Of a stretch of 33,210 nt of DNA, positions 6,387-29,533 are shown one piece after another. The notes under the pieces are model-generated. The model ran no database searches. It worked only from the letters and a program-made list of their open reading frames with translations, and was not told where the DNA came from. The number at the start of each line of letters is the position of its first letter. Position 1 is the first letter of the stretch. The stretch lies in NCBI GenBank assembly GCA_012518555.1, contig JAAYRW010000046.1, positions 1 to 33,210 on the forward strand. Direction: 5' to 3'. The translations under genes and the position numbers were made by a program. Source of the stretch: Tissierellia bacterium (GTDB lineage: Bacteria; Bacillota; Clostridia; Tissierellales; Sedimentibacteraceae).

Positions 6387-6409
6387 AAAAGTTACAAGGA
6401 GAGATGTAT

Positions 6410-8017: not shown

Positions 8018-8020
8018 CAG

Positions 8021-8713
8021 ATGAATGCTATTATACTAGCGGCAGGTATGGGGACAAGACTTAGGCCGCTTACAAATGATACACCTAAATCCCTTGTTAA
8101 AGTAAACGGCCAACCGATAATAGAAAGGCAGATAAAGTTTTTAAATGAAATAGGAATAAAAGATATAATAATTGTAACAGGATATTTAAATGAGAAGTTC
8201 AATTATTTGATCGATAAATATGGCGTTAATATTATATTTAATGATAAATATAGTGTATATAACAATGGATATACAATGTATCTAGTAAAAGATTACTTGC
8301 AAAATTCCTATGTACTTGAGGGAGATGTATACTTGACTAGAAATTTTTTGGAGTCTGAATTAGTTAAATCAACTTACTTTGCAGGAAAAAAAGAAGGTTT
8401 TACTAATGAATGGATTTTAGAACATAATCATCTAAATGAAATTATTAATATAAAAATAGCTAGTGGTAGTGATTATATAATGTCAGGAGTATCTTACTGG
8501 ACAGGGGAAGACGGTAATAAGATAAAAGAAAAACTTGAAGCTATGGTAAAGAAGGATGGCTTTGAGAATTTGTTTTGGGATGATTTAGTAAAGGATAATC
8601 TTGAAGATTTTAATATTCAAATTAGTAAGATCGAACCGACAGACTGGTTTGAAATAGACTCAATAGAAGACTTGCAAAATGCTGAACAATATAGGAGAAA
8701 TTCTTATGAATAA
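8021..8713 (+). CDS. licC: CTP:phosphocholine cytidylyltransferase (LicC-like)
   Basis: The 230-residue nucleotidyltransferase has an intact nucleotide loop, AAGMGTRLRPLTNDTPKSLV (residues 7-26). It also shows the LicC-like series VFNDKY-type IIFNDKYSVYNNGYTMYLV, LEGDVYLTRNF, SGVSYWT, LFWDDLVKDN and EIDSIEDL, close to the pneumococcal enzyme. It would make CDP-choline from CTP and phosphocholine supplied by the preceding kinase, and LicD would use the product. GGAGG sits 6 bases before the ATG, inside the end of the previous gene. No licB choline permease is present in the window, so choline must enter by another route, or the true substrate is a different amino alcohol. Confidence in LicC-type activity is good; substrate identity is inferred. 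Confidence 0.87.
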   Translation: MNAIILAAGMGTRLRPLTNDTPKSLVKVNGQPIIERQIKFLNEIGIKDIIIVTGYLNEKFNYLIDKYGVNIIFNDKYSVYNNGYTMYLVKDYLQNSYVLEGDVYLTRNFLESELVKSTYFAGKKEGFTNEWILEHNHLNEIINIKIASGSDYIMSGVSYWTGEDGNKIKEKLEAMVKKDGFENLFWDDLVKDNLEDFNIQISKIEPTDWFEIDSIEDLQNAEQYRRNSYE

Positions 8714-16026: not shown

Positions 16027-16141
16027 ATTCTTTGTTTGAGAAGTTTATTTTTGTAGATAAGAGGGTAATCAATTCTTATATTATTGTTTGATTTAATGAG
16101 AAACTGGCATAATAGAACTAATTATAAAAAAAATTAAATGT

Positions 16142-16170
16142 ATGCAATAAAATCTACTTTAATTGCGTTA
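16142..16170 (+). promoter_or_regulatory. ECF-type promoter, copy 1 (first sigma operon)
   Basis: ATGCAATAAAA (16142-16152), exactly 14 bp, then GTTA (16167-16170), 22 bases before the sigma gene. The same two boxes with the same spacing stand before 26965 and 28631. A run of A/T bases lies just upstream in all three. The spacing from GCAATA to GTTA (17 bp) fits ECF promoters. Autoregulation by this sigma factor is inferred. Confidence 0.75.
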
Positions 16171-16191
16171 TCTAAATGAGGAGTTGTTAAA

Positions 16192-16788
16192 ATGCTTTTA
16201 TTTACCATGGTGATGAATGATGAGCCAAATAATTTAAAACAAAATAATATAGATGAAAAGCTCTTTAAGCGTATTGCAGATAATGATATGCAGGCTTTGG
16301 AAGAATTGTACCATCTTACGGAGAGAACTCTTTATGCATATCTATTGTCTATTGTAAAAAACCATGATGAAACTTTGGATATAATGCAGCAGACTTATAT
16401 TAAGATTATGTCTTCAGCGCACCTATATAAACCACAGGGTAAGCCCTTAGCCTGGATATTTACAATAGCTAAAAACTTACATTTATCAAATTTAAGAAAA
16501 GGTAAAAAAGAAATATATTTAGATTCTGATGAAATTTCTAATAATGCAAAATTTTCTTATATCACTAATAATGACGATAAAATAGTTCTTGAAACAGTTT
16601 TAAAAATATTAGACCAAGAGGAGAGGAAAATAGTGATGCTATATGCGGTATCCGGTCTTAAGCACAGGGAAATTGCTGAAAGCATTGGTCTTAAACTATC
16701 TACGACACTATCAAAATATCATAGAGCATTAAAGAAAATCAGAAAACATCTTATAGAAGGGGGTGAAGGATATGAAGAATTTAAATGA
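16192..16788 (+). CDS. ECF-family RNA polymerase sigma factor (paralogue 1)
   Basis: The 198-residue protein has the two sigma domains of the ECF class. Region 2 covers about residues 25-105 (ALEELYHLTERTLYAYLLSI, then QQTYIKIMSSA and KPLAWIFTIAKNLHLSNLRK). Region 4 covers about 130-185 (LDQEERKIVMLYAVSGLKHREIAESIGLKLSTTLSKYHRALKKI), with a helix-turn-helix that reads the -35 box. GAGGAG precedes the ATG. Its end overlaps the anti-sigma gene by 17 bases, so the two are translated together. A paralogue at 26965 is alike in length, motifs and partner gene. It probably transcribes its own operon from the promoter at 16142 when released by the anti-sigma factor. Confidence 0.9.
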   Translation: MLLFTMVMNDEPNNLKQNNIDEKLFKRIADNDMQALEELYHLTERTLYAYLLSIVKNHDETLDIMQQTYIKIMSSAHLYKPQGKPLAWIFTIAKNLHLSNLRKGKKEIYLDSDEISNNAKFSYITNNDDKIVLETVLKILDQEERKIVMLYAVSGLKHREIAESIGLKLSTTLSKYHRALKKIRKHLIEGGEGYEEFK

Positions 16789-17815
16789 TAGAGAAATTTT
16801 GAACCATATTAAAAATAGTGTTGATCAAGCACCTATTGATATATTAGACAATATTAAAAATCAAACAGTGGTAAAGATGATTAAACATGATGATATAACA
16901 AGACAAGAAAGCAAGTCATCCAAAACAACTCTTAAATCTATTATGTCCTTTGCCGCGGCGGCAGCAGTGTTCCTGTTTATGTTTAATATTTTCCAATTTA
17001 GACTCCCTGATAGTGAAATTTATATAGATGTGAATCCAGGTGTTCAGATTACAACAAACAGAAGAGATGATGTAATAAAATTATTGCCGATAAATGATGA
17101 AGCAGCAGAGATAGTTAAGGATATAGAATTTAAAGGGAAAGAAATTGAAATAGTTACAGGGGAGATTGTTGATTCTTTGATAGATAATAATTATATATCT
17201 GAAGATGATGATGTAATGCTCTTGTCTGTATATAATAAGGATTTGGAAAAAAGCAAAAGACAGGTTAGGGAAATAAACGATACAATTCATAAAAAGCTTG
17301 ATGATAATCACAAGAATCCTATACTGCTATCTCAATCCATAGATAAGAGCAATACTGTGGATGAATTTGCAAAGAAATATGGAGTATCCGTCGGAAAGAT
17401 GACTTTTATTCGAAATATGATAATATTAAACCCTGAACTTAAAACTGAAGAACTTGTTGATTTATCTTTAAGTCGATTAATTGAAATATCCAATGATATT
17501 GGAATAGATATTGAAAAGATAATAGACAGCGGAAATGATGAAAGGATAACAAATCCTATAGTAGAGCCACTGCCTGTAGATGATGATTATGACGATGACA
17601 ATGATGACGACAACGAAAGTCGACATCTCATAGGTAATATAAAGGCAATGGAAATAGCATTGGGTTTGGCAAATGGAAAAATTGTTGATTTTGAATTGGA
17701 CGAAGACGATGGATATTATAAATATGAAATCGAGATAGTTGCAGATGGTTATGAATATGAAATTGAATTAGATGCCTATACGGGCGAAGTTTTAGAATTT
17801 GAAAAAGATGATTAA
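16772..17815 (+). CDS. Membrane-bound anti-sigma factor with RsgI-like ectodomain and C-terminal PepSY-like domain (paralogue 1)
   Basis: The 347-residue protein spans the membrane once. Residues 1-50 are cytoplasmic and hold the block SVDQAPIDIL shared with the second copy, the likely sigma-binding part. Residues 54-76 form the membrane helix. Outside lies the RsgI-type motif YIDVNPGVQITTN (83-95); in characterised RsgI proteins cleavage occurs at the Asn-Pro bond of this motif. A helical domain follows, then an Asp-rich linker and a PepSY-like repeat (DFELDEDDGYYKYEIEIVA... AYTGEVLEFE). ATG 16772 is preferred to GTG 16763 because it matches the start of the paralogue and is properly spaced from GGGGG. 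It probably holds the sigma factor until an outside signal triggers proteolysis. The signal is unknown. Confidence 0.85.
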   Translation: MKNLNDREILNHIKNSVDQAPIDILDNIKNQTVVKMIKHDDITRQESKSSKTTLKSIMSFAAAAAVFLFMFNIFQFRLPDSEIYIDVNPGVQITTNRRDDVIKLLPINDEAAEIVKDIEFKGKEIEIVTGEIVDSLIDNNYISEDDDVMLLSVYNKDLEKSKRQVREINDTIHKKLDDNHKNPILLSQSIDKSNTVDEFAKKYGVSVGKMTFIRNMIILNPELKTEELVDLSLSRLIEISNDIGIDIEKIIDSGNDERITNPIVEPLPVDDDYDDDNDDDNESRHLIGNIKAMEIALGLANGKIVDFELDEDDGYYKYEIEIVADGYEYEIELDAYTGEVLEFEKDD

Positions 17816-17883
17816 GATGATAAAGAGAGAAAAAATTCTGCATGCAAAATAAAGTATTAATTAATATAATAATATAAGACAAA

Positions 17884-17933
17884 ACGAACATTCCAATGGA
17901 AATTTACCAGATTGAAATGTTCGTCTTATTTTT
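17884..17933 (+). terminator. Terminator after the first sigma operon
   Basis: ACGAACATT (17884-17892) pairs with AATGTTCGT (17916-17924), extended inward by CAAT/ATTG, then a T-rich tail. The sequence is closely related to the terminator at 15987, hinting at a small repeat family. Confidence 0.75.
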
Positions 17934-17981
17934 CATTAGAACAATATTTTTATACTATCATTCACTCCCAGACTGATCTTA

Positions 17982-18119
17982 TTGAGTTTAAAATATAACA
18001 ATCTGAATTTGATTATTTGCATTGCAATGGCTGTGGTGTTTATGATAATATATACAAGTCTAATTGAATTTAAAAGAAGAGGAGTGAGGAAAGGCTTAGA
18101 GGTCGGAAGAATTCTATAA
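17982..18119 (+). other. Possible small membrane peptide or gene relic in the 17934-18189 spacer
   Basis: An open frame ending at 18119 could start at TTG 17982 (45 residues) or ATG 18027 (30 residues). It predicts one membrane helix (LIICIAMAVVFMIIYTSLI) and a basic tail (KRRGVRKGLEVGRIL). Neither start has a ribosome site, so it may be the end of a decayed gene. An 11-bp odd palindrome TTGCATTGCAA (18017-18027) and a TATAAT at 18115-18120 lie in the same spacer. A clear promoter for the following operon is not visible, which may mean it needs an activator. Confidence 0.25.
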
Positions 18120-18189
18120 TAAGTTATCGAATTTGAGAAAATGTTTTAGGTAAATTGATTGAATTATTTGTCTTAATATGGAGGTAGTA

Positions 18190-18975
18190 ATGAGTAAAAT
18201 ATGCAATTATATGAATAATAGTATAAACAAGTACATAAGGCCCTATACATTTCCTGTTGCGGTGAAATTATTAGCAAAAGGGGAAGCTTTGCCACAGAAA
18301 ATGAGAGTACCGACAGAAAATCTTGGTCATCCAGTTGCATTTTGTCAAGCTGTAAGTATGGCAAGAAGATTTGGGTGGCCGGTGGCGCTTTATCAGAAAG
18401 ATCAAGCTTGTGGCTTAGCACAGATTGCTCTCGGATACAAAGAAGAGCCTGACTTTATGAAGGATGGGTCTATGGTGTATCCCTTATATGTAGAAAATAT
18501 GGAAGCTGGTAAAAAAACACAGGAATCTACTCCTAAAATGCCAACAGCTCATACTTACTGTATAATTGTTGCTCCATTGCATTTGGCTGAATTTGATCCG
18601 GATGTAATAATTGTATATGGTAATGCAGCGCAAATAACTAGGTTGGTTCAAGGTGCACTTTATAAAGAGGGTGGATATATTGAGTCGCGGTTCGCAGGTC
18701 GTATAGCGTGTGGAGGGCAAGTAGTTGTTCCTATTGTAGAGGATCGTTGTAATGTAATAATTCCCGGTGGTGGAGAGCGAGTGTTTGCAGTTACTACAGA
18801 TGATGAATTAGCATTTTCAATGCCAAAGTCTAAATTTGAAGATTTAGCAGAAGGCCTTGAAAAAACACATAAGGGTGGAGTTGCAAGGATTCCTACACCT
18901 TTTGCAGCAATAAATGCAAAACCACAATTTCCAGAAGCATACTGGGAATTAGAAAAGTATTGTGATTTAAGATAA
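18190..18975 (+). CDS. DUF169 family protein
   Basis: The 261-residue cytoplasmic protein matches the uncharacterised DUF169 family: PVAVKLL near the N-terminus, FCQAVSMARRFGWPVAL with a conserved cysteine, CGLAQIALGY, then DVIIVYGNAAQITRLVQGALY and a final GGGERVFAVTTDDELAFSMP. Its activity is not known to me. GGAGGT gives ATG 18190 an ideal ribosome site and lies across the earlier in-frame ATG at 18178. It is the first gene of a run with an acyl-CoA dehydrogenase and both electron-transfer flavoprotein subunits, which suggests a role in that redox reaction. The conserved cysteines might carry a cofactor, but that is inference. Confidence 0.85.
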   Translation: MSKICNYMNNSINKYIRPYTFPVAVKLLAKGEALPQKMRVPTENLGHPVAFCQAVSMARRFGWPVALYQKDQACGLAQIALGYKEEPDFMKDGSMVYPLYVENMEAGKKTQESTPKMPTAHTYCIIVAPLHLAEFDPDVIIVYGNAAQITRLVQGALYKEGGYIESRFAGRIACGGQVVVPIVEDRCNVIIPGGGERVFAVTTDDELAFSMPKSKFEDLAEGLEKTHKGGVARIPTPFAAINAKPQFPEAYWELEKYCDLR

Positions 18976-19011
18976 TATCTATATAATAAAGAATGTATTA
19001 GGAGGATAAAT

Positions 19012-20166
19012 ATGCAGTTTTTTAAATTTACAGAAGAACAAGAGTTGTTAAGAAAGGCAGTAAGAGAGTTTGTGGAAACAGAGATAGCCCCAAAGGCAGC
19101 TGAGTGGGATGAAAAGGATTATTGCCCTATGGAACTGTTTCCTGTTATGGGTGAATTAGGTATAAATGGAATATTTGTTCCAGAAGAATACGGCGGAGCA
19201 GGAATGGGCCATGTGGAAAGGGCAATATGCTTAGAAGAAATATCCAGGCATTCTGCAGGATTGGGTATAGCTCTTATGACACATCATTTAGGAATGGCTG
19301 CTATTTTAGATTTTGCTAGTGAGGAGCAGAAACAAAAATACTTGCCGGAACTTTGTGAAGGAACTAAGTTATGCGGATTATCAGTTACAGAGCCTGGAGG
19401 AGGTTCGGATTTTGCAGGTCAAAAGACTACAGCAGAATTAGTTGATGGACACTGGCTACTAAATGGGCGTAAATGTTTCATAACTAATCACCATGCTGAT
19501 GTGAATGTTGTAACAGCTGTTACAGGTCAGAATGAAAAAGGAAGAAATCTATTAGGAGCTTTTATAGTTGAGAAGGGTACACCAGGATTTAGCGAAGGAC
19601 GTAAGGAGAATAAGTTAGGCCTAAGAGCTTCTGTAACAGGTGATGTTGTATTAAATGATGCAAAAGTACCGGAAGAGAATATAATAGGTGAAGCTGGTTC
19701 AGGAGCTAAGATAGGTATGGCATGTATCGGTGAAGTAGGTAGAGCCGGCATGAGTGCTATCTGTGTGGGAATATTAAGAGGATGTGTTGAAGAGGCAGTT
19801 AAATTTTCTAGTGAGCGTATCTTATACGGTAGACCTATATCTAAGCTACAAGCTATACAATTTGAAATAGCAAATATACGTACTGATTATGAAACAGCAA
19901 GAATGTTACTCTACTATGCTGCTGGGAAAAAGGATGCCAAGTTACCTGCAACAGCGGATTTTGCAATAGCGAAGTACCATGCTACAGAAGCAGCTGTCCG
20001 TTCATCAAAGCGAACTATGGATCTTATGGGTGGCTACGGAATTGTCAACGAATATCCTGTAGGACGTTTCCTAAGAGATGCTTTGGCATCCATACCGTCA
20101 GGAGGAACTTCCCATATCCAACAACTAATAATAGCAGGGGATACTTTATCATCATATAAGGCATAA
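19012..20166 (+). CDS. Acyl-CoA dehydrogenase family flavoprotein with altered catalytic site
   Basis: The normal-length (384-residue) protein has the full fold: helical N-terminus, the FAD and substrate motif CGLSVTEPGGGSDFAG, the beta domain (WLLNGRKCFITN) and the C-terminal helices (RTMDLMGGYGIVNEYPVGRFLRDA). In most short- and medium-chain enzymes the base is the glutamate of the motif Y-E-G-T-S-x-I-Q. Here it reads IPSGGTSHIQ, so glycine (residue 364) replaces it. The alternative base position used by isovaleryl- and long-chain enzymes also seems not to be glutamate (GEVGRAG). EtfB and EtfA follow directly, so electrons pass to or from an Etf. It may act as a reductase or on an unusual acyl-CoA. 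AGGAGG precedes the ATG. Confidence 0.88.
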   Translation: MQFFKFTEEQELLRKAVREFVETEIAPKAAEWDEKDYCPMELFPVMGELGINGIFVPEEYGGAGMGHVERAICLEEISRHSAGLGIALMTHHLGMAAILDFASEEQKQKYLPELCEGTKLCGLSVTEPGGGSDFAGQKTTAELVDGHWLLNGRKCFITNHHADVNVVTAVTGQNEKGRNLLGAFIVEKGTPGFSEGRKENKLGLRASVTGDVVLNDAKVPEENIIGEAGSGAKIGMACIGEVGRAGMSAICVGILRGCVEEAVKFSSERILYGRPISKLQAIQFEIANIRTDYETARMLLYYAAGKKDAKLPATADFAIAKYHATEAAVRSSKRTMDLMGGYGIVNEYPVGRFLRDALASIPSGGTSHIQQLIIAGDTLSSYKA

Positions 20167-20181
20167 GTGAAAGGAGAAATT

Positions 20182-21030
20182 ATGGCACTGAATATAGTAG
20201 TTTGCATAAAGCCTGTTCCAGATCCTCAATATTATGACAAGGTTAGTATAGATCCGGAAACGAAGAGAATTATTCGAGAAGGTATTCCCACAATAATAAA
20301 TCCTGTAGACAAGAATGGAATAGAGGCAGCATTACAACTTAGAAAACTGTACGGAGGAAAGGTAACGGTAGTTACTATGGCTCCTCCTAATGCAGTAGAG
20401 AATTTACGGGAAGCTCTTGCTATGGGCGCTGATGAAGCAATTTTGCTTTCAGATAGAGAATTTGGAGGTGCAGATACCTTGGCTACCTCCTACACACTGG
20501 CAAAGGGAATAGAAAAGTTAGCTAACTTCGATATAGTATTTTGTGGTGTAGAAAGTGCTGACGGAGCTACTGCTCAAGTTTCTTCACAGCTTGGTGAATG
20601 GCTGGGAATTCCGCATTTGTGGAATGTATTTGAGATTGAAGCAGAGGATGAAAGAAACTTAAAAGTGAAAACAAAAGTGGAAAATGGTTCAATGGATTGG
20701 GAAATAAAGCTACCCTGTTTGCTGGGAGTGGCAAGAGAAGTTAATAAACCACGTTTTATTTCAGCCATGGGTATAATAAAGGCTAAAAAGAAACCAATAT
20801 CCATATGGGGAAGGGATGATCTTACTTTAGAAGATGAAAGGATCGGACTTACCGGTTCTCCTACTAAAGCCGGGGAAATATTCGAACCAGATCTTAAGAG
20901 GAAGGGAGAAATCCTTAAGGGTTCCTTAGAAGAAGTAGTAGATGTATTAACAAGCAAGGTGAGAGCCGCTGGTATCAATATTACTGAAGGAAAGGGAATA
21001 GGTTCTGAGGAGGTGTCCGAGGATGAATAA
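20182..21030 (+). CDS. etfB: Electron transfer flavoprotein beta subunit
   Basis: The 282-residue EtfB has the hallmark start NIVVCIKPVPDP, then AIEAALQLR-type IEAALQLRKLYGG, AMGADEAILLSD and the FCGVESADGATAQVSSQLGEWLG block that binds the nucleotide. With EtfA it shuttles electrons for the dehydrogenase just upstream; some clostridial Etf complexes bifurcate electrons, which cannot be decided here. ATG 20182 with AAAGGAG is preferred to the GTG at 20167. The gene overlaps etfA by 8 bases, so subunit synthesis is coupled. The tail beyond residue 230 is longer than in housekeeping EtfB. Confidence 0.93.
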   Translation: MALNIVVCIKPVPDPQYYDKVSIDPETKRIIREGIPTIINPVDKNGIEAALQLRKLYGGKVTVVTMAPPNAVENLREALAMGADEAILLSDREFGGADTLATSYTLAKGIEKLANFDIVFCGVESADGATAQVSSQLGEWLGIPHLWNVFEIEAEDERNLKVKTKVENGSMDWEIKLPCLLGVAREVNKPRFISAMGIIKAKKKPISIWGRDDLTLEDERIGLTGSPTKAGEIFEPDLKRKGEILKGSLEEVVDVLTSKVRAAGINITEGKGIGSEEVSEDE

Positions 21031-22003
21031 AATATGGGTATTTGCCGAGCAAGTGGAATGTTCTTTAGATAGAGTAGTTTTGGAACTTTTGACAAAGGCA
21101 AAAGAGTTGGCGAGGGAGATGGCTGGAGAAACAGAAATAGCCGCTGTACTTTTAGGATGCAATGTAGAATCTTTAGTAGAAAGCTTGGGAAAATATGGTG
21201 CAGATAAAGTGTATTTAGCTGAATCAGAAGAACTAAAGTTATATAATCCGTCAATATATGCCCCCATAATAACAGAGTTAGTAAAAGAAGAGGATCCTGA
21301 CATTTTCCTCTTTGGAGCTACTGCAATCGGCTCTGAACTTTGCCCAACAATTGCAGCTCAATTAAAGACTGGAGTTGCAGCTCACTGTATTGATATGAAT
21401 ATTAACAAGGATGGCAAGTTGGTTGCTACGGTACCATCCTTTGGAGGTAAGATAGTTGGGGAGATTCTTTGCCCAGATACACGTCCCCAGATGGCCAGTG
21501 TTAAGCCTGGTATTTTCATTCAAGGTGAAGAAGAAGAGAGAGAACCGCTAGTAGAAAAGGTTGAAGTAAACATAAATACCGAAAACCTTCCTCTTAAAGC
21601 TATAAGTCTTAATAAAAAAGAGATAAAAGGTGTACCTCTAGATAAGGCAGAAATAGTTTTTTGTGGAGGATTTGGCTTAGGTAATAAAGAAAACTGGGAG
21701 AAGTTAGAAAGATTAGCGGGATTATTCGGTGGAGCAGTGGCATGTACACGCCCTGTAGTAGATGAAGGTTGGGCCCCAGGTGAACATTTAATGATTGGAA
21801 CCAGCGGTAAATCAGTAAGACCGAAGGTTTATATTGGTTTTGGTATATCGGGAGCAACTCACCATGTTTGCGGTATTAAGGATTCCGGTTTGATAATTAG
21901 TGTAAATAACGATGAAAAAGCAGCTATATTTGAAATTTCAGATATTGGAATAGTTGAGGATTTAAATAAGGTATTAGATCAATTGTTATTAAAGTTTTCC
22001 TAA
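21023..22003 (+). CDS. etfA: Electron transfer flavoprotein alpha subunit
   Basis: The 326-residue EtfA has an N-terminal domain like EtfB and a C-terminal FAD domain: GGFGLGNKENWEKLERLAGLFGGAVACTRPVVDEGW, MIGTSGKSVRPKVYIGFGISGATHHVCGI and IISVNNDEKAAIF. These match the family GxGSR...GQTGKxVxPxLYIAxGISGAxQH signature with small changes (SR to TR, Q to I, QH to HH). These changes suggest a catabolic subfamily rather than the housekeeping Etf. GAGGAGGT inside the end of etfB serves as ribosome site. It closes the DUF169-dehydrogenase-Etf operon before a hairpin at 22032. Confidence 0.93.
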   Translation: MNKIWVFAEQVECSLDRVVLELLTKAKELAREMAGETEIAAVLLGCNVESLVESLGKYGADKVYLAESEELKLYNPSIYAPIITELVKEEDPDIFLFGATAIGSELCPTIAAQLKTGVAAHCIDMNINKDGKLVATVPSFGGKIVGEILCPDTRPQMASVKPGIFIQGEEEEREPLVEKVEVNINTENLPLKAISLNKKEIKGVPLDKAEIVFCGGFGLGNKENWEKLERLAGLFGGAVACTRPVVDEGWAPGEHLMIGTSGKSVRPKVYIGFGISGATHHVCGIKDSGLIISVNNDEKAAIFEISDIGIVEDLNKVLDQLLLKFS

Positions 22004-22031
22004 TGAAGCAAAAGTTAATATAGTATAAGAA

Positions 22032-22066
22032 TGACGGTTAAAGGATTTACCTTTAGCCGTCAATTT
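22032..22066 (+). terminator. Probable terminator after etfA
   Basis: TGACGGTTAAAGG pairs with CCTTTAGCCGTCA (one G-T pair) around ATTTA. Only a weak T-rich tail (ATTTATTA) follows, so termination may be partial. Confidence 0.65.
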
Positions 22067-22131
22067 ATTATATAAACCTGAGTTTCTACTGTGCTGTATG
22101 TCTTATAGTGGCTGAAATTAAGGATAAACAG

Positions 22132-22160
22132 TTGAGAGTGAAGGGGTTATCTGGTATACT
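22132..22160 (+). promoter_or_regulatory. Promoter of the AraC-type regulator
   Basis: TTGAGA (22132-22137), 17 bp, TATACT (22155-22160), 42 bases before the ATG at 22202. The regulator is therefore transcribed apart from the Etf operon. Confidence 0.65.
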
Positions 22161-22201
22161 TTGTTTAAAGTTGATGAAAATTTAAATAAAGGGTTGTTAA
22201 C

Positions 22202-23617
22202 ATGAAAAAATCCGATAAATATAAGATAAACAGTTCTATAAAAAAAGAAGTAATATTCTTTAATGAAGAGCCTTTTTCTATGAAGATACAGACCATAAAG
22301 AGGTATCCCATTCATTGGCACCAGGATGTTACGGAAATATTAATTCCAATCAAAGGAACAATTAATGTTGCAACAAATTATGAAAGAATTTTAGTAAAGG
22401 AAAATGATTTTGTTTTTATTAACAATAAATCTTTTCATTTTATAGAAAGTTCTGAAGAAGCAGTTGTTGCAAGCATCTATATAAATCTAAATTTCTTTGA
22501 AAAAAAGTATGAAGATATTAAATATATGTACTTTAGAAGTAATATGTATTCTAGAAAGTATAAAGAAATTGAAAGTGATAATTACAATTTAAGAAAAAAA
22601 TCTCACAAAAAAATGTTCAGGAATAAACTTATAGGTGTAATAGTAGATGCTATTTCTAATAATGAATCATTGGCTAAAATTTCAAATTTTTATATAGAAC
22701 AAATTGTTAAGTCAATGGTAAATGACTTTAACTGGCTTCAATTTTTAAAAACAAGAAAAATTAAAAAAGAAAGTTTGGACAGATACCATAGGATAGTAAA
22801 ATATATTAAAGATAATGTTAATAAAAAAATAACATTAGATACTATTATATCAATGGAATATATATCGAAAAATTATTTTTCGCATTTTTGGAAGGAACTA
22901 TGCGACTTTAGTTTTACGGAAAGAGTATACTTTGAGAAAGTTATAGCTTCTGAATTTAAGTTACTTACCACCAATATGAATATTGTTTCTATCGCGGAGG
23001 AACTTAACTTTTCGGATCCTAAGTACTATTATAACCACTTTAAAAGATGGTATGGCTGTACTCCTTTAGGGCATAGAAAACGGTGTTTTTCCTATATGAA
23101 ACTGGATATGGAGCATAGTCAATTGACAAATGATAAAGCAGTGGAAATTATTGATGATTATATAAGTTTTCATTCTATGTCATCCTACGAAGACTTATAT
23201 TCATTTGCGAAAAATAACTATATAATAATTGAAAGAATATTTTTACTAGATGATGATTTTTCTCTTAATGGAGATATGAGTATAGTTTTAGATTTATTCA
23301 AATATGCAAGAATTGAAAATTCTATTACAAAAATGAATTGGCACATTATATTTCAAATTATATTGATTTCTTATGTGAGAAATTTAGATTTGACAGTAAA
23401 AATAGATTGTACCTTCAGTGAAAAAATAGATTTTTTAGAAACATTAAGTAATTTTTTTCAATTCAGTTTCTTTCATTTTGATTCTACTCTAATTAATAAG
23501 TGGGATTATTTTATAAGATACGATGAAAGTGTCACTATAAATTATATAAAGAGCATAAAATCAATAGTTGGCAGCAATGTAGATAAGGCTGTATTTAAAT
23601 ATTACTTTGAGTTTTGA
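22202..23617 (+). CDS. AraC-family transcriptional regulator with extra C-terminal domain
   Basis: The 471-residue protein has a cupin-like sensing domain (HWHQDVTEILIPIKGTINVATN, residues 38-60, to FINNKSFHFIE near 80). The double helix-turn-helix of the AraC family lies in the middle, at about 194-300 (ITLDTIISMEYISKNYFSHFWKEL, then IVSIAEELNFSDPKYYYNHFKRWYGCTP). A further 170 residues of unknown type follow, whereas most AraC proteins end with the helix-turn-helix. It probably binds a small ligand and controls the Etf operon upstream or the flavoprotein gene downstream; the direction of control is inferred only. The short TTGTTAAC before the ATG gives a weak ribosome site (AAAGGG). Confidence 0.85.
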   Translation: MKKSDKYKINSSIKKEVIFFNEEPFSMKIQTIKRYPIHWHQDVTEILIPIKGTINVATNYERILVKENDFVFINNKSFHFIESSEEAVVASIYINLNFFEKKYEDIKYMYFRSNMYSRKYKEIESDNYNLRKKSHKKMFRNKLIGVIVDAISNNESLAKISNFYIEQIVKSMVNDFNWLQFLKTRKIKKESLDRYHRIVKYIKDNVNKKITLDTIISMEYISKNYFSHFWKELCDFSFTERVYFEKVIASEFKLLTTNMNIVSIAEELNFSDPKYYYNHFKRWYGCTPLGHRKRCFSYMKLDMEHSQLTNDKAVEIIDDYISFHSMSSYEDLYSFAKNNYIIIERIFLLDDDFSLNGDMSIVLDLFKYARIENSITKMNWHIIFQIILISYVRNLDLTVKIDCTFSEKIDFLETLSNFFQFSFFHFDSTLINKWDYFIRYDESVTINYIKSIKSIVGSNVDKAVFKYYFEF

Positions 23618-23618
23618 A

Positions 23619-23712
23619 GGTCTTGATGTAATAGTAGATTTTACCGGTTCCGGAAGGACTTGACCTTTTAAGAGAAGGAAAAGTTTCAGGGCGACTTGTT
23701 ATGAATAATTAA
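23619..23712 (+). pseudogene. Short frameshifted coding relic
   Basis: Directly after the AraC stop, one frame reads GLDVIVDFTGSGRT and a second frame, shifted by one, continues DLLREGKVSGRLVMNN before a stop. Both pieces look like parts of a medium-chain dehydrogenase/reductase, though in an intact enzyme they would be far apart. Family is a guess; that this is decayed coding sequence is more likely than not. Confidence 0.35.
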
Positions 23713-23724
23713 ATAGAAAACAAC

Positions 23725-23755
23725 AAAGCATTTAGGTAATCCTAAATGCTTTTGA
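23725..23755. terminator. Bidirectional terminator between the AraC and flavoprotein genes
   Basis: AAAGCATTTAGG (23725-23736) and CCTAAATGCTTT (23741-23752) form a perfect 12-bp stem with loop TAAT. T-runs are available on both strands, serving two convergent genes. Confidence 0.85.
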
Positions 23756-23784
23756 TAGTTACTTACTATTAATTTTCATAAAAG

Positions 23785-25467
23785 TTATAAACTGGCTACA
23801 ATTTGTCCGGCTAAGTATCCAAATGTATCTGTTCGCCCTGCGGCTATTCCAACTAATAACTCAGGATAATTGTTGCTGAAGAAACCACCGCTGTCATTGC
23901 CGATTGCGTATAATCCATCTATTGGATTGTGTGATTTATCCAATACTTGAAGATTAGTATTTATTCTTAAGCCGTCTAAAGTACATAATAACTGTCCCCC
24001 TATTGTTGCAGCTCTGTAAGGAGGCTTTGTCAATGGTAACATACGATAAGATTCTTTCCCGAAATCTTCGTCATAACCTTTTTCACATAATTCATTGTAG
24101 CGATTAACTGTCGCAACTAAATTATCAGCCGGTATGCCCAGCTTATCTGCTAAACCTTCTAAAGTTTCATCCTCTACTACAATTCCTCTTGGCATCAATA
24201 CTTCTTGGTGGAATCCTTCAGTTGCTTCCTCGTCGAACAACATCAGCTTACTTCCCGAAGGACTATATTGAATTCGGGAACACCCGATAGTGCGGAATTG
24301 TCTTGTATGTTCTCTCCAATCAGAATCCCATATCATGCAATATGTATCTTCCGGTTCCAAAGTAGCTGCATGTATCATAAAATCATAGGGAATGGATTCA
24401 TTAACAAATCTTTCACCCTTTTTATTTACTTTAAGAAAAGGTTGACTGCCTATGTGAGTCATCATTCCTTGTTTTAGATCTCCGCCGGTTGTTGCATCCG
24501 GAGGACATCCTCCTCTATCAAAAATCATAACTGTAGGAACATCATCCTTTGCAGCCCCTATCCATGTTGCTGCTTTTATGCCATCTCCCTGACTTCCCGC
24601 GTGACTGTCGGTAGCCGTACAGCTATTATAAGCTAAGGGGTTAAGAGTTTTAAGCATATCCAAATTCGCTGAATATCCCCCTGTAGCCAAGATAACTCCT
24701 TTTGAAGCGTTTATTTTAATGTATTCTTCTCCAGTTTTCGCAGCAGCACCTGTTACTCTTCCTTCGTTGTTTTCCCTGATAAGTTGAACCATTGGTGTTT
24801 CGAGAAGTATTTCTACACCGAGGCTTTCAGCGTATGTTTTCAAAATTTCCGTTACATATATTGATTTTTCCTCATTCTGAACATTATGTTGGATGGGAAA
24901 GGTTTTATAATAACCTTTATTTTCTCCTGAATCAGTTTCCGCCATAACGTAGGCACCTTGATCTTTGACTATACCCTCTAACCAGTTTATCATGTCACCA
25001 CTGTTATCTGCCCATAATTTAATTAATTTTTGGTCAACCCTGTGGGATGCATATTTGCATGCTTCTTCTATAATTTCAAACTTGTCCAATTCTATGCCTG
25101 CTTCTTTTTGTAAATTACTACCTATTGCTCCAATCCACCCTCGTCCCGTTCCAATCATGGCATTTCTTTCTATAACCGTTACCTTGGCACCATTTTCTGC
25201 TGCTGAGCAAGCTGCAAATAAGCCTCCGTTACCGGCTCCGACAATTAAGACTTCAGTATCTAAAGTCTTTTTGAAATCGGTTATTGGTTCAGGAGGTATA
25301 TCCCAGCTTTCAATTTTCTCCGGTTCGGAATTTGATAAATCATTTCCATTTGAACTTGTATCAGCTGTACTTGTACCTGCTGCACAGCTTGCCAAAAATC
25401 CTATAGAACTTATTCCCACTGCGCTTGCTGCAGCACCCTTAATAAAATCACGACGACTTAATCCCAT
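23785..25467 (-). CDS. Tat-exported FAD-dependent reductase lipoprotein (fumarate/urocanate reductase-like)
   Basis: The 560-residue protein starts with a twin-arginine signal (SRRDFIKG, residues 4-11) ending in lipobox LASC (Cys28), so it should be exported folded and lipid-anchored. After a polar linker comes the FAD motif VLIVGAGNGGLFAACSAAENG. Later blocks are GVILATGGYSANLDML, SHAGSQGDGIKAA, NKKGERFVNE, TVNRYNELCEKGYDEDFGK and a final GLRINTNLQVLD...GLYAIGNDSGGFF. These are FrdA/UrdA-like. Such enzymes pass electrons from the membrane to an organic acceptor. ATG 25467 fits AGGAG and the Tat motif; ATG 25485 adds six residues. A LysR gene is divergent and probably controls it. The acceptor is unknown. 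Confidence 0.9.
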   Translation of the reverse strand: MGLSRRDFIKGAAASAVGISSIGFLASCAAGTSTADTSSNGNDLSNSEPEKIESWDIPPEPITDFKKTLDTEVLIVGAGNGGLFAACSAAENGAKVTVIERNAMIGTGRGWIGAIGSNLQKEAGIELDKFEIIEEACKYASHRVDQKLIKLWADNSGDMINWLEGIVKDQGAYVMAETDSGENKGYYKTFPIQHNVQNEEKSIYVTEILKTYAESLGVEILLETPMVQLIRENNEGRVTGAAAKTGEEYIKINASKGVILATGGYSANLDMLKTLNPLAYNSCTATDSHAGSQGDGIKAATWIGAAKDDVPTVMIFDRGGCPPDATTGGDLKQGMMTHIGSQPFLKVNKKGERFVNESIPYDFMIHAATLEPEDTYCMIWDSDWREHTRQFRTIGCSRIQYSPSGSKLMLFDEEATEGFHQEVLMPRGIVVEDETLEGLADKLGIPADNLVATVNRYNELCEKGYDEDFGKESYRMLPLTKPPYRAATIGGQLLCTLDGLRINTNLQVLDKSHNPIDGLYAIGNDSGGFFSNNYPELLVGIAAGRTDTFGYLAGQIVASL

Positions 25468-25507
25468 TTTATTATCTCCTCTCAAATTTTGTTGTTTTAT
25501 TAACTAT

Positions 25508-25553
25508 ATTATAACAAATTATTATAGAAGTTGTTATTTAAGTATGTTATAAT
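25508..25553. promoter_or_regulatory. Divergent extended -10 promoters with a LysR-type inverted repeat
   Basis: ATAACAA (25511-25517) and TTGTTAT (25531-25537) form an inverted repeat with a 13-bp gap, the kind of site LysR regulators bind. On the minus strand TGTTATAAT (25516-25508) and on the plus strand TGTTATAAT (25545-25553) are extended -10 boxes for the flavoprotein and the LysR gene. The minus-strand -10 lies within the left arm, so binding would affect it directly. Confidence 0.65.
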
Positions 25554-25583
25554 TAATAAATAATTTTTATTACGGAGTGATAA

Positions 25584-26471
25584 ATGAATATAAAACAATT
25601 GGAAAGTTTCATTGAGGTAAGTAATACATTGAATTTTACCAGAGCTGCACGAAATTTATATATAACACAGCCTGCCGTAACCCATCAAATACAAACATTA
25701 GAAGATGAATTGGGATTAAAACTATTTACTAGGTCGAAACATAATGTAGAGCTTACGCCTGCCGGTCAGTCCTTTCGCAATGATGTTCAAGATATATTAA
25801 TGAGATTAAACATGGCTGTTGCAAAAGCTAAAAATTATTCTCAGGAATTTGAAGCAAGTTTATCTATTGGGTATGGTGGCAATGTAGAAGTAAAACATTT
25901 AGCGAGTATACTAAGCATATACAAGGAAAAAATGCCCTATGTTCATCTATATATAAAGATGGTTGATGCTGTAGAAAAAAGTAATTTGTTTGCAAACGAT
26001 AATTTGGATATTATATTTGCAGTTAAGGAAAGTATTAATAATGTGAAAGATGTCAGTTATAGGGAATTGTACAAGGGAAAATTTGTTTGTGTAGTTCCTA
26101 AGAATCATGAATTGGCACGTTACAAAAATATATCTATTACTGACTTAAAGGGACAGTCATTGATATTATTAGATCCGATAAAATGCCCGCAAGAAATGGC
26201 AAGAGTACAAAAGAATATCCAAAACACTTGTCCAGAAGCTGTCGTTTATTATTCTGATTCAGGTCTAAACAGTTATACTATGATAAAAGGCGAATTAGGA
26301 ATTGCAGTTATGCCAAACTTTGTATGTCCGGAAGATTCCGACCTTGTGTTTATTCCCATAAAAACCAAAGAAATTATTTCATATGGAATTGCTTGGCATA
26401 ATAATATTAAGAGAGAAGAAATAAAAGAGTTTGTTGAAATTACAAAAGAAGTTTATGAATATAATAAATAG
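25584..26471 (+). CDS. LysR-family transcriptional regulator
   Basis: The 295-residue protein has the N-terminal winged helix-turn-helix of LysR proteins (MNIKQLESFIEVSNTLNFTRAARNLYITQPAVTHQIQTLEDELGLKLF) and a two-lobed effector domain from about residue 90. It is divergent from the Tat flavoprotein gene with only 116 bases between the start codons and an inverted repeat in the gap, the usual arrangement for control of the neighbour by the neighbour's substrate. ACGGAG lies just before the ATG. A terminator follows at 26484. Confidence 0.92.
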   Translation: MNIKQLESFIEVSNTLNFTRAARNLYITQPAVTHQIQTLEDELGLKLFTRSKHNVELTPAGQSFRNDVQDILMRLNMAVAKAKNYSQEFEASLSIGYGGNVEVKHLASILSIYKEKMPYVHLYIKMVDAVEKSNLFANDNLDIIFAVKESINNVKDVSYRELYKGKFVCVVPKNHELARYKNISITDLKGQSLILLDPIKCPQEMARVQKNIQNTCPEAVVYYSDSGLNSYTMIKGELGIAVMPNFVCPEDSDLVFIPIKTKEIISYGIAWHNNIKREEIKEFVEITKEVYEYNK

Positions 26472-26483
26472 CCTGCCCTATGC

Positions 26484-26522
26484 AAAAACAACTTGAGGAA
26501 AAGTTCTTCAAGTTGTTTTTTT
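26484..26522. terminator. Terminator after the LysR gene
   Basis: AAACAACTTGA pairs with TCAAGTTGTTT around a short inner stem (GGAA/TTC), followed by TTTTTTT on the plus strand. The minus-strand gene at 26529-26765 ends just beside it, so it may serve both. Confidence 0.85.
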
Positions 26523-26528
26523 AATAAT

Positions 26529-26765
26529 TCATGTAGTTGTGTTTTTCCAATAATCATTGGCAGCAGCTACCGTTTGGAAATTTATTGCAATAATTTGTGA
26601 AGCTGCTATTAGACTGTCTGCATTTTTTGAATATAGTGGTCGCAGTCTATTCCTAATTTCTTCAGATGGCTGTGTATATACAACACCTCTTTGAGAAAGT
26701 TGAATTGCTAACTCGAAACCTTCTTGCGGTGTATCGGTTCTTAAACTTAAAAGCCATTGTTCCAT
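26529..26765 (-). CDS. Small hypothetical protein (78 aa)
   Basis: An excellent ribosome site (GGGGGAG) stands 4 bases before the ATG, and the 78-codon frame ends next to a terminator, so it is probably real. The protein is soluble with no signal or membrane segment. Its sequence (start MEQWLLSLRTDTPQEGFELA, end IIAINFQTVAAANDYWKN) predicts mostly helix. I do not recognise it. It lies between the LysR gene and the second sigma operon, reading against both. Confidence 0.65.
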   Translation of the reverse strand: MEQWLLSLRTDTPQEGFELAIQLSQRGVVYTQPSEEIRNRLRPLYSKNADSLIAASQIIAINFQTVAAANDYWKNTTT

Positions 26766-26915
26766 ATTTCTCCCCCTTCCTTTTATAATATATGCTTATA
26801 AAAGGAATAGGGTTCGGAAAGGATAGTTACATAAATTATCTATTTTTTCGTATATTAATTTTGAATATAGATAGATTGGGTATAAAGATATAAATTATAA
26901 AAAATATAAAAATTT

Positions 26916-26944
26916 ATGCAATAAAAATGCACATTCATTAGTTA
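26916..26944 (+). promoter_or_regulatory. ECF-type promoter, copy 2 (second sigma operon)
   Basis: ATGCAATAAAA (26916-26926), 14 bp, GTTA (26941-26944), 21 bases before the sigma start. Box sequences and spacing are identical to copies 1 and 3, while the 14-bp spacers differ completely, so the conservation is of the boxes, not of a duplicated block. Confidence 0.75.
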
Positions 26945-26964
26945 TATAGTTAAAGGAGCCGTGT

Positions 26965-27552
26965 ATGTTATTATTTACATTTGTTTATGATGATAATCCG
27001 AGGAAACAGGGAAATAAAATAGAGATAAATGAGAATCTTTTTCATAGAATTGCAAAGGATGAAATGAATGCCTTTGATGAACTTTATGGACTTACGGAAA
27101 GAACTATGTATGCATTTGCCGTTTCCCTTACGAAGGATCATCAAAAGGCTCTTGATCTTATGCAGGATACCTATGTAAAGATTCTTTCAGCGGCGCATTT
27201 GTATAAACCAATGGGGAAGCCTTTGGCATGGATGTTTACAATTGCTAAGAATCTTCACTATACTAATACTGTAAAAGAGAAAAGGAGTATACCTTTGGAA
27301 CCGGAGGAGGTTGCAAATGACAAAAAGTTCTCTTATGTTACAGATGTAGAGGACCGGATAGTTCTTGAAGGAGTTTTGACCTTGTTGTCCCAAGAGGAAA
27401 GGGAGATTGTAATGCTATATGCAATATCCGGCATGAAGCATAAGGAAATTGCAGAGTCTTTAGAGCTAAAATTGTCTACTGTTTTGTCAAAATACCACAG
27501 AGCTCTTAAAAAACTTAGAAAATACTTGGAAAGAGGTGAGGAAAGTCCATGA
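26965..27552 (+). CDS. ECF-family RNA polymerase sigma factor (paralogue 2)
   Basis: This is a 195-residue paralogue of the factor at 16192, with the same N-terminal MLLFT start, region 2 (AFDELYGLTERTMYAFAVSL, DTYVKILSAAHLYKPMGKPLAW) and region 4 (LSQEEREIVMLYAISGMKHKEIAESLELKLSTVLSKYHRALKKL). The helix that reads the -35 box is almost the same in both, which predicts shared or overlapping promoter specificity. AAAGGAG precedes the ATG. The stop overlaps the anti-sigma start as ATGA, so the two proteins should be made in balance. Confidence 0.9.
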   Translation: MLLFTFVYDDNPRKQGNKIEINENLFHRIAKDEMNAFDELYGLTERTMYAFAVSLTKDHQKALDLMQDTYVKILSAAHLYKPMGKPLAWMFTIAKNLHYTNTVKEKRSIPLEPEEVANDKKFSYVTDVEDRIVLEGVLTLLSQEEREIVMLYAISGMKHKEIAESLELKLSTVLSKYHRALKKLRKYLERGEESP

Positions 27553-28553
27553 ATGAAAAGCAGATTTTAAGTAGTTTAAAAAAATCCATAAATCAGGCAC
27601 CTATAGATATTTTAGAAAAAATTAAGGAAGAGCCAAGGACGAAGATGCTACAACATGACCATATTACTATGCAGAACACAAGGACGAATTCATTTAGAAA
27701 AGTAATGCCCTACGCATCAGTTGCTGCGGCATTGTTTATTGGATTTTTCGGTTGGTATTTCCAGAGGGGTATGCCAGACAGCAAGGTATATTTAGATGTT
27801 AATCCAAGTATTGAAATAGTTACGAATAGACAAGACGAAGTTATAGACTTAACAGCATATAATACAGATGGTACTACAGTTACAAAAGATTTAGAGTATA
27901 AAGGAAAAACAATGTACCAGGTAACAGAGGACGTTTTAGACAGAATGTTGGATGAAGGCTATATAGACAAGGAACACGAATTTTTGCTTCTTTCAGTTTA
28001 TAACAAAAATGACAGTAAGGCAGAGCAACAAAAACAAAATCTTGATAAAAGCATTCACCAATATCTTCAGGCAAAGGAATTGGAGCCTATAATTCTTTCC
28101 CAGAAACTTAGTAACACCTCAACTATTGAAAGATATGCAAAAGAGTATGGAATTTCAGTAAGTAAAATGACCTTTATCAGAAATCTTATTATTCTAAATC
28201 CAGACTTACAGACAGAAGATCTGGTAGATTTAGGAATCGAGGAACTTGTAAGCTTAAGTCAGGGTATGGGTATTGAATTGGATAAGATAATTGACTCTTC
28301 AGACTTTGACAAAATTAAAAACCTGCAGACTGAACCTATAATAGAACCTGAATATGAGCCAGAGCCGGAATTGATTTCTCTGGAACAGGCAAGGACGATT
28401 GCACTTTCTGTTGCTGATGGAGTGATTACGGATTTGGATTTTGATGATGATGATTTAGAGTATGAAGTGGAAATCCAAGTAGGGGATTTGGAATATGAAA
28501 TTACCATAGATGCAAGAACTGGAGAGATTATTGAGATAGAAATAGATGATTAA
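27549..28553 (+). CDS. Membrane-bound anti-sigma factor with RsgI-like ectodomain and C-terminal PepSY-like domain (paralogue 2)
   Basis: The 334-residue protein has the same order of parts as its paralogue at 16772: a cytoplasmic segment with SINQAPIDILEKIKEE (residues 13-28), a membrane helix at about 54-72, then outside YLDVNPSIEIVTN (81-93) with the Asn-Pro bond known as a cleavage site in RsgI proteins. After that come a conserved helical block (EYGISVSKMTFIRNLIILNP) and a PepSY-like C-terminus (ISLEQARTIALSVADGVITD...ARTGEIIEIEID). The linker is Glu/Pro-rich (EPIIEPEYEPEPE) instead of Asp-rich. It should bind and silence the co-encoded sigma factor. The ligand is unknown. Confidence 0.85.
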   Translation: MNEKQILSSLKKSINQAPIDILEKIKEEPRTKMLQHDHITMQNTRTNSFRKVMPYASVAAALFIGFFGWYFQRGMPDSKVYLDVNPSIEIVTNRQDEVIDLTAYNTDGTTVTKDLEYKGKTMYQVTEDVLDRMLDEGYIDKEHEFLLLSVYNKNDSKAEQQKQNLDKSIHQYLQAKELEPIILSQKLSNTSTIERYAKEYGISVSKMTFIRNLIILNPDLQTEDLVDLGIEELVSLSQGMGIELDKIIDSSDFDKIKNLQTEPIIEPEYEPEPELISLEQARTIALSVADGVITDLDFDDDDLEYEVEIQVGDLEYEITIDARTGEIIEIEIDD

Positions 28554-28570
28554 AAATTATTTTAAAAATG

Positions 28571-28599
28571 ATGCAATAAAAACAGAGCTTGGTAAGTTA
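28571..28599 (+). promoter_or_regulatory. ECF-type promoter, copy 3 (stand-alone RsgI-like gene)
   Basis: ATGCAATAAAA (28571-28581), 14 bp, GTTA (28596-28599), 31 bases before the start at 28631. It sits in the 77-bp gap after the anti-sigma gene, so the third gene can be transcribed alone as well as by read-through. Confidence 0.72.
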
Positions 28600-28630: not shown

Positions 28631-29533
28631 ATGAAAGGAAAAATAAAATATTTAATACTTCCAGTTTTAATATTAGCATTAGCAGTAGGAGGATACGCTG
28701 TAACACGGCCTGTAAACTCACTGACAATGGATGTAAATCCAAGTATTGAAATAGTTACAAACAGATTGGACAGAGTGGTGGAAATCAATCCTTTAAATGA
28801 GGATGCAAAGGAACTTCTAAAAGATTTTAATCCTAAGGATAAGAATTTAGAAAGAACAGTAAACGATTTGGTTGATCTCATGATTCTTACAGGACATATT
28901 CGAGGTGGCGATGACAACTTTGTTATGATAACAGTAACGGATAAATTAGTTGATAGTAAAGTCGTTAATAAGATAAACGAAGCAATAGCGGCTATGCTTC
29001 AGAATAAACAGATTGAAGCAACAGTATTAAATCAAACTATAACAAAGAGCGACAAGGGTAAGAAACAGACGGGAGTACAGCTTGCAGCACAGAAAATCCA
29101 AGAAATTGACGGAGGCCTTACAGCAGAACAACTAGGCTCCATGACTGTCAAAGAGCTTATTTACTACAGCAGGGACAATAATATATCAATTGAGGACATA
29201 TTTAGAGTTGCGGCAGGAAACATAGATACGGGAAGAGGTAAAGAGTTTGAAAGAGACGATGACTATAAGGATAAAAGCACAGTGGACAAGAGTACGGTAG
29301 ACAAGGCTAGTACAGATGTAAGCAAGAAGCAGCATAATACTTCAAAGGGAAGAATATCGGCTGAAGAAGCAAAAGATATTGCTTTCGGTCTAACAGGTGG
29401 AGGAAGAATAACAGAATTTGAATTAGATGATGATGAGTACGAAATAGAGATAAAATATAAGGGAAAAGAATACGAAGTTGAAATAGATGCTTATACAGGT
29501 AAGATTCTTGAATTTGAGGTAGATGATGATTAA
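28631..29533 (+). CDS. Stand-alone RsgI-like/PepSY membrane protein without anti-sigma domain
   Basis: The 300-residue protein begins at once with a membrane helix (residues 7-24) and then SLTMDVNPSIEIVTNRLD (30-47), the same RsgI-type motif as in the two anti-sigma factors. A helical domain follows, then a linker with a short repeat (KSTVDKSTVDKASTD) and a PepSY-like C-terminus (RISAEEAKDIAFGLTGGGRI... AYTGKILEFEVDDD). The cytoplasmic QAPIDIL segment is missing, so it cannot hold a sigma factor in the same way. It has its own copy of the ECF-type promoter. A decoy, co-sensor or effector of the envelope response is plausible but unproven. AAGGAGG precedes the ATG. Confidence 0.82.
   Translation: MKGKIKYLILPVLILALAVGGYAVTRPVNSLTMDVNPSIEIVTNRLDRVVEINPLNEDAKELLKDFNPKDKNLERTVNDLVDLMILTGHIRGGDDNFVMITVTDKLVDSKVVNKINEAIAAMLQNKQIEATVLNQTITKSDKGKKQTGVQLAAQKIQEIDGGLTAEQLGSMTVKELIYYSRDNNISIEDIFRVAAGNIDTGRGKEFERDDDYKDKSTVDKSTVDKASTDVSKKQHNTSKGRISAEEAKDIAFGLTGGGRITEFELDDDEYEIEIKYKGKEYEVEIDAYTGKILEFEVDDD

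Follow-up and report, generated by a model that had tools for sequence, protein, structure and literature searches.

Three identical promoter elements of a probable ECF sigma factor circuit with RsgI-type ectodomains in a Tissierellia bacterium

Membrane-bound anti-sigma factors of the RsgI type and the sigma-H promoters of Mycobacterium tuberculosis are among the closest described counterparts of the system treated here, which lies in a 33,210-nucleotide stretch of DNA (hereafter the window) from a Tissierellia bacterium (NCBI GenBank assembly GCA_012518555.1, contig JAAYRW010000046.1) and comprises three identical promoter-like elements, two extracytoplasmic function (ECF) sigma factor genes, two putative anti-sigma genes and an orphan gene for an ectodomain protein that lacks an anti-sigma segment. 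In Clostridium thermocellum, RsgI is dismantled in three steps: it cleaves itself, RseP acts on it next, and a cytoplasmic AAA+ protease follows (available text of PMC12203970), and in Bacillus subtilis its release follows cell-wall defects (available text of PMC10202637). The sigma-H open complex of M. tuberculosis has the promoter sequence GGAAYA at -34 to -29 and GTT at -11 to -9, with sigma residue N92, together with I91, contacting the -11 pair (PMC6411747, in the part available), and for CsfT and CsfU of Clostridioides difficile the available text describes the promoter consensus as unknown (PMC7438776).

We conclude with high confidence that the three elements of the window are promoters of one ECF sigma specificity, belonging to sigma/anti-sigma pairs that are autoregulated. 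A wider reading, put forward only tentatively, is that the conserved output of the circuit is its own sensor acting as a signal sink, that a single sigma residue, at position 100, sets the promoter base at -11, and that sigma and promoters have been switched together several times.

Three promoter elements and the units behind them

An earlier note on this DNA had proposed three exact ECF-type elements with equal spacing and unrelated spacers, and pattern matching bears it out: the window holds exactly three copies of ATGCAATAAAA-N14-GTTA, always on the + strand, at 16142-16170 (promoter 1), 26916-26944 (promoter 2) and 28571-28599 (promoter 3), each time with 14 spacer bases of unrelated sequence. 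Exact matches expected by chance number 0.00 (100 dinucleotide shuffles), and the next nearest site in the window has two mismatches. Throughout the draft genome to which the window belongs (2.09 Mb, 88% complete), TGCAATAAAA-N13-15-GTTA is confined to these three places; the genome-wide scan that the note had proposed, run as TGCAATAAAAN{13,15}GTTA, returned the three window copies as its only exact matches and nothing in the reversed control. The box-to-start-codon gaps are 21, 20 and 31 bases for copies 1, 2 and 3, so that the range of 21-31 given earlier holds for the first and third copies and becomes 20-31 with the second.

Downstream of each copy stands a unit with one of the only three RsgI_M genes found in the genome and, as the earlier note had it, every unit encodes an RsgI/PepSY ectodomain (RsgI_M plus PepSY in all three). 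Two of the units start with an ECF sigma gene, the RsgI_M gene following directly 3': sigma factor 1 (198 amino acids, 16192-16788, + strand) with putative anti-sigma 1 (16763-17815, +, start codon uncertain), and sigma factor 2 (195 amino acids, 26965-27552, +) with putative anti-sigma 2 (27549-28553, +). The third unit holds the orphan (300 amino acids, 28631-29533, +). Both sigma factors match Sigma70_r2 and Sigma70_r4_2 in Pfam, which gives them regions 2 and 4 only, the make-up of an ECF sigma factor, and both exceed the cut-off of TIGR02937 (sigma70-ECF). They are the only close pair in the genome, 61% identical to each other, the next best match being far weaker, and the near-identity of their region 4 claimed from the outset amounts to 42 of 55 positions, with 17 of 21 in the recognition stretch and 12 of 25 in the linker.

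The promoter is read here as GCAATA at -34 to -29, 17 bases, and GTT at -11 to -9; an element rich in A and T precedes it. In promoter 1, GCAATA occupies 16144-16149, with an A-tract running to 16152, and GTTA lies at 16167-16170. The G of GTTA lies 23 bases from that of GCAATA, a distance equal to that of the sigma-H promoter in the available text, and transcription start sites (+1) are therefore predicted near 16178, 26952 and 28607 for promoters 1, 2 and 3. By eye, the window copies also have in common a run rich in A and T that precedes the -35 box by about 11-20 bases; placed by its offset from the box and with the logo of relatives as a guide, the upstream element would span 16124-16133, 26898-26907 and 28553-28562 (all +). 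The earlier note's account did not contain this element. By a hand count anchored on the shared W, I and N (W81, I85 and N88 in sigma-H; W89, I93 and N96 here) and made without a structural alignment, N92 of sigma-H corresponds to residue 100 of window sigma 2, which is Thr; sigma 1 has Ser at this position, predicted to read the -11 base.

Identical boxes at three promoters and 17 shared residues out of 21 in the recognition stretch imply that each sigma should read all three, and cross-talk between the two sigma factors, as anticipated in the earlier note, is likely on these grounds and on that of Ser or Thr at the reading residue, at the level of the promoter only. Two insulated circuits, with each sigma restricted to its own operon by anti-sigma pairing or by small promoter differences, would agree with the divergent linkers and with Ser in one protein and Thr in the other, but boxes and spacing do not differ among the three sites and the recognition stretches hardly do, and we regard insulation as improbable. 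Since promoter 3 begins 17 bases after the stop codon of anti-sigma 2, the orphan may be made from both promoters 2 and 3.

Conservation among relatives and the -11 base

Conservation was assessed on 79 loci from a genome collection (the best 80 of 118 matches were kept), two same-genus loci and the window (L016-L096 and the window), which together hold 84 sigma genes and 79 pairs of sigma and RsgI_M genes. Cultured relatives in which such a locus occurs are Proteiniclasticum ruminis and Acidaminobacter hydrogenoformans. The element lies at most 200 bases upstream of 71 of the 84 sigma genes, at spacing 14 and with no more than one mismatch, and is perfect in 51. A stricter form precedes 60 of the 84, as compared with 61 of 15,568 windows placed at random in these loci; the possibility, named in the earlier note as one that would speak against its reading, of a motif equally common at random sites is thus not borne out. 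Linked orphan genes have the element within 300 bases of the domain in 17 of 17 cases (L034 with one mismatch). In the logo of relatives the spacer is mostly low in information, its last bases being partly conserved, whereas the stretch 11-20 bases before the box has an A+T fraction of 0.88 vs 0.51 for the loci (58 promoters), and of 0.89 vs 0.41 in G+C-rich loci (26 promoters). Five sigma relatives (L020, L060, L073, L077 and L096) have no detected RsgI_M partner in the locus fetched, and L060, L077 and L096 are also without the element.

That the three sites might be recent duplicates without selection would suit the paralogy of the sigma operons and the 61% identity of their sigma factors, but the spacers are unrelated and retention of the element in dozens of species-level genomes contradicts it, so that this explanation is scarcely credible. 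Slightly less remote, though still very improbable, is that the element is a transcription-factor operator or a housekeeping promoter: sigma-70-like matches are indeed common in this A/T-rich region (66 found vs 61.6 in shuffles), yet such a site would not explain a fixed 14-base spacing around a mostly random spacer, the sigma-H geometry or co-variation with a sigma residue. The ECF promoter and its autoregulation, both proposed in the earlier note, are by contrast supported by conservation in the right place, by that geometry and by the co-variation, and the element would be what is expected for an ECF sigma factor, a bipartite autoregulated promoter with rigid spacing.

The co-variation concerns the -10 box of the relatives, which is GTTA or CATTA, so that the -11 base varies. 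Among the 84 sigma genes (75 classified), residue 100, in region 2.4, is the sigma column with the highest mutual information with the -11 base; in a column scan scored with frequencies taken from the other rows it reaches 20.5 bits, the next column 6.0, and the mean is -7.7. For a hold-out set, 391 genomes sampled from the class supplied all of their 30 matches, and 300 genomes of one family the best 30 of their 61; without two window entries this left 58 loci, and without 12 that were more than 95% identical to others 46, of which 39 were scored and seven (4 Met, 2 Ser, 1 Asp) were unclassified. Here Met goes with A in 21 of 21 cases and Ser or Thr with G in 6 of 6 (together 27/27), while other residues go with A in 11 of 12. 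Both sets combined (111 of 130 classified) give Met with A in 63/63 and Ser or Thr with G in 27/28; the Fisher value for this association ignores relatedness. Five isolated GTTA rows within CATTA clades, picked by eye, have S, S, S, T and Q at residue 100; two (L063, L071) come from the discovery set and three (L178, L185, L194) from the hold-out. The -11 base also agrees between sigma and orphan promoters in all 15 linked loci where both can be typed; in a sixteenth, L035, the sigma promoter is not typable. One residue of sigma region 2.4, Met vs Ser/Thr, seems to decide the -11 promoter base.

Several observations weigh against this picture. Eight of the 84 sigma genes lack a recognisable element and five have it only at spacing 15, some of these weak. 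Upstream of promoter 1, at 16054-16082, there is a sigma-70-like site, so other transcription starts are possible. The residue-100 rule has an exception in L049 (Thr with A), and residues other than Met, Ser and Thr pair with both bases (17 A, 3 G). An independent-pairs test on the tree, with two pairs on starred branches and six in all, was underpowered and not significant, so it is the hold-out and the column scan that carry the case for co-variation. The cytoplasmic segment of the anti-sigmas, the place where a four-helix class I anti-sigma domain (ASD-I) would lie, is short and matches no anti-sigma family in Pfam. Finally, of 27 genomes in the family only three, the window's among them, have a close sigma, a patchiness that could mean acquired genes on the contig or an error in binning.

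Sensor proteins, regulon size and genomic setting

The two putative anti-sigmas consist of a short cytoplasmic segment with an A.PD.L consensus, a transmembrane (TM) helix, RsgI_M with the motif DVNP, and PepSY; RsgI_N (PF12791) was not found among the window proteins at E 0.001. The orphan has the same outer part, with only a few residues, a basic tip, ahead of its TM helix. Its AlphaFold model (mean pLDDT 73, pTM 0.48) places the TM helix at 4-25 and the RsgI_M region at 27-195, followed by a low-confidence, disordered acidic linker and a confident PepSY domain, and locates N36-P37 between two strands. In a structure search with this model the nine best solved folds were all RsgI periplasmic domains, and at the sequence level the orphan matches PDB entries for RsgI in which the chain begins at the residue aligned with P37, as the fragment behind an Asn-Pro cut would; the equivalent of N36-P37 we take to be the exact cut site of RsgI. 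Since 76 of 79 anti-sigmas and all 17 linked orphans retain [VI]NP, the same first step, autocleavage, is likely here. The putative sigma/anti-sigma pair is a hybrid, an ECF sigma joined to an RsgI-type ectodomain that retains the Asn-Pro motif.

We propose that at rest the sigma would be held by the short cytoplasmic segment of the membrane anti-sigma, whose ectodomain would already be self-cut at Asn-Pro with its pieces still together. A signal at the ectodomain or the PepSY domain would separate the pieces, a site-2 protease and then a cytoplasmic protease would destroy the anti-sigma, and the freed sigma would transcribe both sigma operons, its own and the paralogous one, as well as the orphan gene, which has a promoter to itself. 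The orphan might then soak up the signal or its cause, in a shut-off or buffering loop that doubles as effector.

The predicted regulon is tiny: the sigma and anti-sigma genes and the ectodomain-only protein, equal to three promoters in the window genome. The single sigma regulon of the earlier note holds in so far as the three promoters exist, but not as a broad gene set. One-mismatch forms of the element number 16 in the whole genome, 13 besides the three exact copies (reversed control 4); the five of these 13 with exact 14-base spacing, which were the ones inspected, all fall within open reading frames (ORFs) of at least 100 codons and give no sign of a wider regulon. Nor was the element found in the first 3,000 bases of contig 15, which contain the genome's other PepSY gene.

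Two pattern scans extended this to 50 genomes, with sites assigned to sigma loci or elsewhere by reading the site table. In 22 genomes, the window's among them and chosen mainly for GTTA-class sigmas, 54 sites were found, 37 at sigma loci and 17 elsewhere (reversed control 7); nine of the 17 were inspected, and six lie within ORFs (L112 near the start of its frame). At L115, one of the remaining three and from a Tissierella metagenome-assembled genome (MAG), the element stands on the minus strand (1501), 22 bases before a gene labelled GGDEF-like by eye, a candidate extra member of the regulon. A further 28 genomes, mostly with CATTA-class sigmas and many of gut origin, gave 38 CATTA sites, 25 at sigma loci and 13 elsewhere (reversed control 2), two genomes having none; among the seven of the 13 inspected, four precede exported Cu_amine_oxidN1 proteins, one lies within an ORF and two are without a clear gene. 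Together the scans yield 92 sites, 62 of them at sigma loci and 30 elsewhere (16 inspected), and reversed controls of 9. L129 bears two tandem CATTA-type promoters 81 bases apart (1501-1608); 78 and 159 bases separate them from the gene, downstream, of an exported, acidic Cu_amine_oxidN1 protein in which PepSY was not matched. Apart from the sigma operon, the target that recurs is an exported protein with PepSY, either the linked orphan or, in L137 and L151, a Cu_amine_oxidN1 protein with two or four PepSY domains; in the genomes of the latter two, no orphan was seen in the sigma locus fetched. In what looks like a self-regulating stress control system, the circuit appears to make chiefly further copies of the sensor that it exposes on the outside.

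Because the orphan has the outer domains of the anti-sigmas and no sigma to hold, its role may be that of a sink that takes up the signal, or whatever causes it; this proposal, which we advance tentatively, fits the scarcity of other conserved targets. About as likely is that it is a plain envelope effector, its acidic PepSY domain binding metals, peptides or wall enzymes and its RsgI likeness reflecting descent only, with the reading of the promoters unchanged; we consider this a serious possibility, a little short of an even one. In its favour are the element before the Cu_amine_oxidN1 proteins of L151, L137 and L129, a linked orphan that bears four PepSY domains (L102), and PepSY proteins elsewhere that function in the envelope or bind lanthanides (PMC10653890, PMC11845868, available text), although a lanthanide or metal role is only suggested here, by a relative. 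All 17 linked orphans, however, keep both RsgI_M and [VI]NP, which a simple binder would not need. Judged by eye in 13 loci, the genes that follow the orphan are apparently not conserved, so no pathway can be read from them.

Window sigma 2 is 75-79% identical to sigmas of several Tissierellia/Clostridiales MAGs vs 47-51% to same-genus ones, and these closer distant relatives, with the patchy presence, hint at transfer or binning. A binning probe on contig C147 took the product of a neighbouring acyl-CoA dehydrogenase-like gene: one same-genus genome has a relative of it at 78% identity, and in the other genomes compared its matches are 33-43% identical or absent. Between the sigma operons (18178-22003) a DUF169 gene comes before an acyl-CoA dehydrogenase-like one and a pair of genes resembling, by eye, those of electron-transfer flavoprotein subunits; at 5535-8713 the translations suggest, also by eye, a putative LicD/nucleotidyltransferase set that would serve phosphocholine decoration. 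MAGs of Gudongella and Soehngenia (L022:2105-3756 and L025:2034-3805) have genes for a SigI-like sigma and an RsgI_N protein directly upstream of the ECF/RsgI_M system. These sigmas have region 2 only (in L022, the one scanned, the best models were the SigI NCBIfam ones, below their cut-offs), and the RsgI_N proteins of both loci have no RsgI_M match, which lends no support to them as the source of the ectodomain.

Comparison with known systems

The sigma family has members in 29 of the 391 genomes sampled from the class and in 54 of 300 from one family of relatives. With its ECF sigma joined to an RsgI-type ectodomain, the system is a variant built from known parts, and the family may already be listed in the ECF classification; no description of the combination was recognised in the open-licence literature searched, figure logos and supplements lying outside the search. 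New here are the co-variation of the -11 base with residue 100, the tiny regulon with its ectodomain-only protein, and the hybrid pair of sigma and RsgI-type regulator. A testable promoter logo is now on hand for this sigma family, together with a candidate natural one-residue, one-base specificity code, open to direct testing and useful for orthogonal switches, and the link between a probably autocleaving RsgI-type ectodomain and ordinary ECF sigmas illustrates how sensing modules and sigma modules change partners. Should the orphan prove to be a decoy, the circuit would be a compact negative-feedback design in membrane signalling.

Like the SigI/RsgI systems of Bacillus and C. thermocellum, the present one has an RsgI_M ectodomain with Asn-Pro, a TM helix, and a sigma gene followed by its anti-sigma gene, and in both, going by the available text for SigI, the sigma genes bear the sigma's own promoter. 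SigI, however, has SigI-C where the sigma here has a true region 4 (PMC6056542, PMC10575876, available text), the RsgI_N match is missing in the window proteins, and the promoter is unlike the A-tract/CGWA type of SigI. With the sigma-H promoters of M. tuberculosis it shares the GGAAYA/GTT positions, the 23-base distance and the corresponding reading residue, as far as the available text shows, but it has C rather than G at -33, an extra A-tract and, in many relatives, A at -11, and its anti-sigma is membrane-bound and of the RsgI type. Exported PepSY domains are likewise found in the envelope proteins YpeB, TseB/CopD and LanP (available text of PMC11845868 and PMC10653890); unlike those, the PepSY domains here are fused to RsgI_M and placed under the sigma's own promoter.

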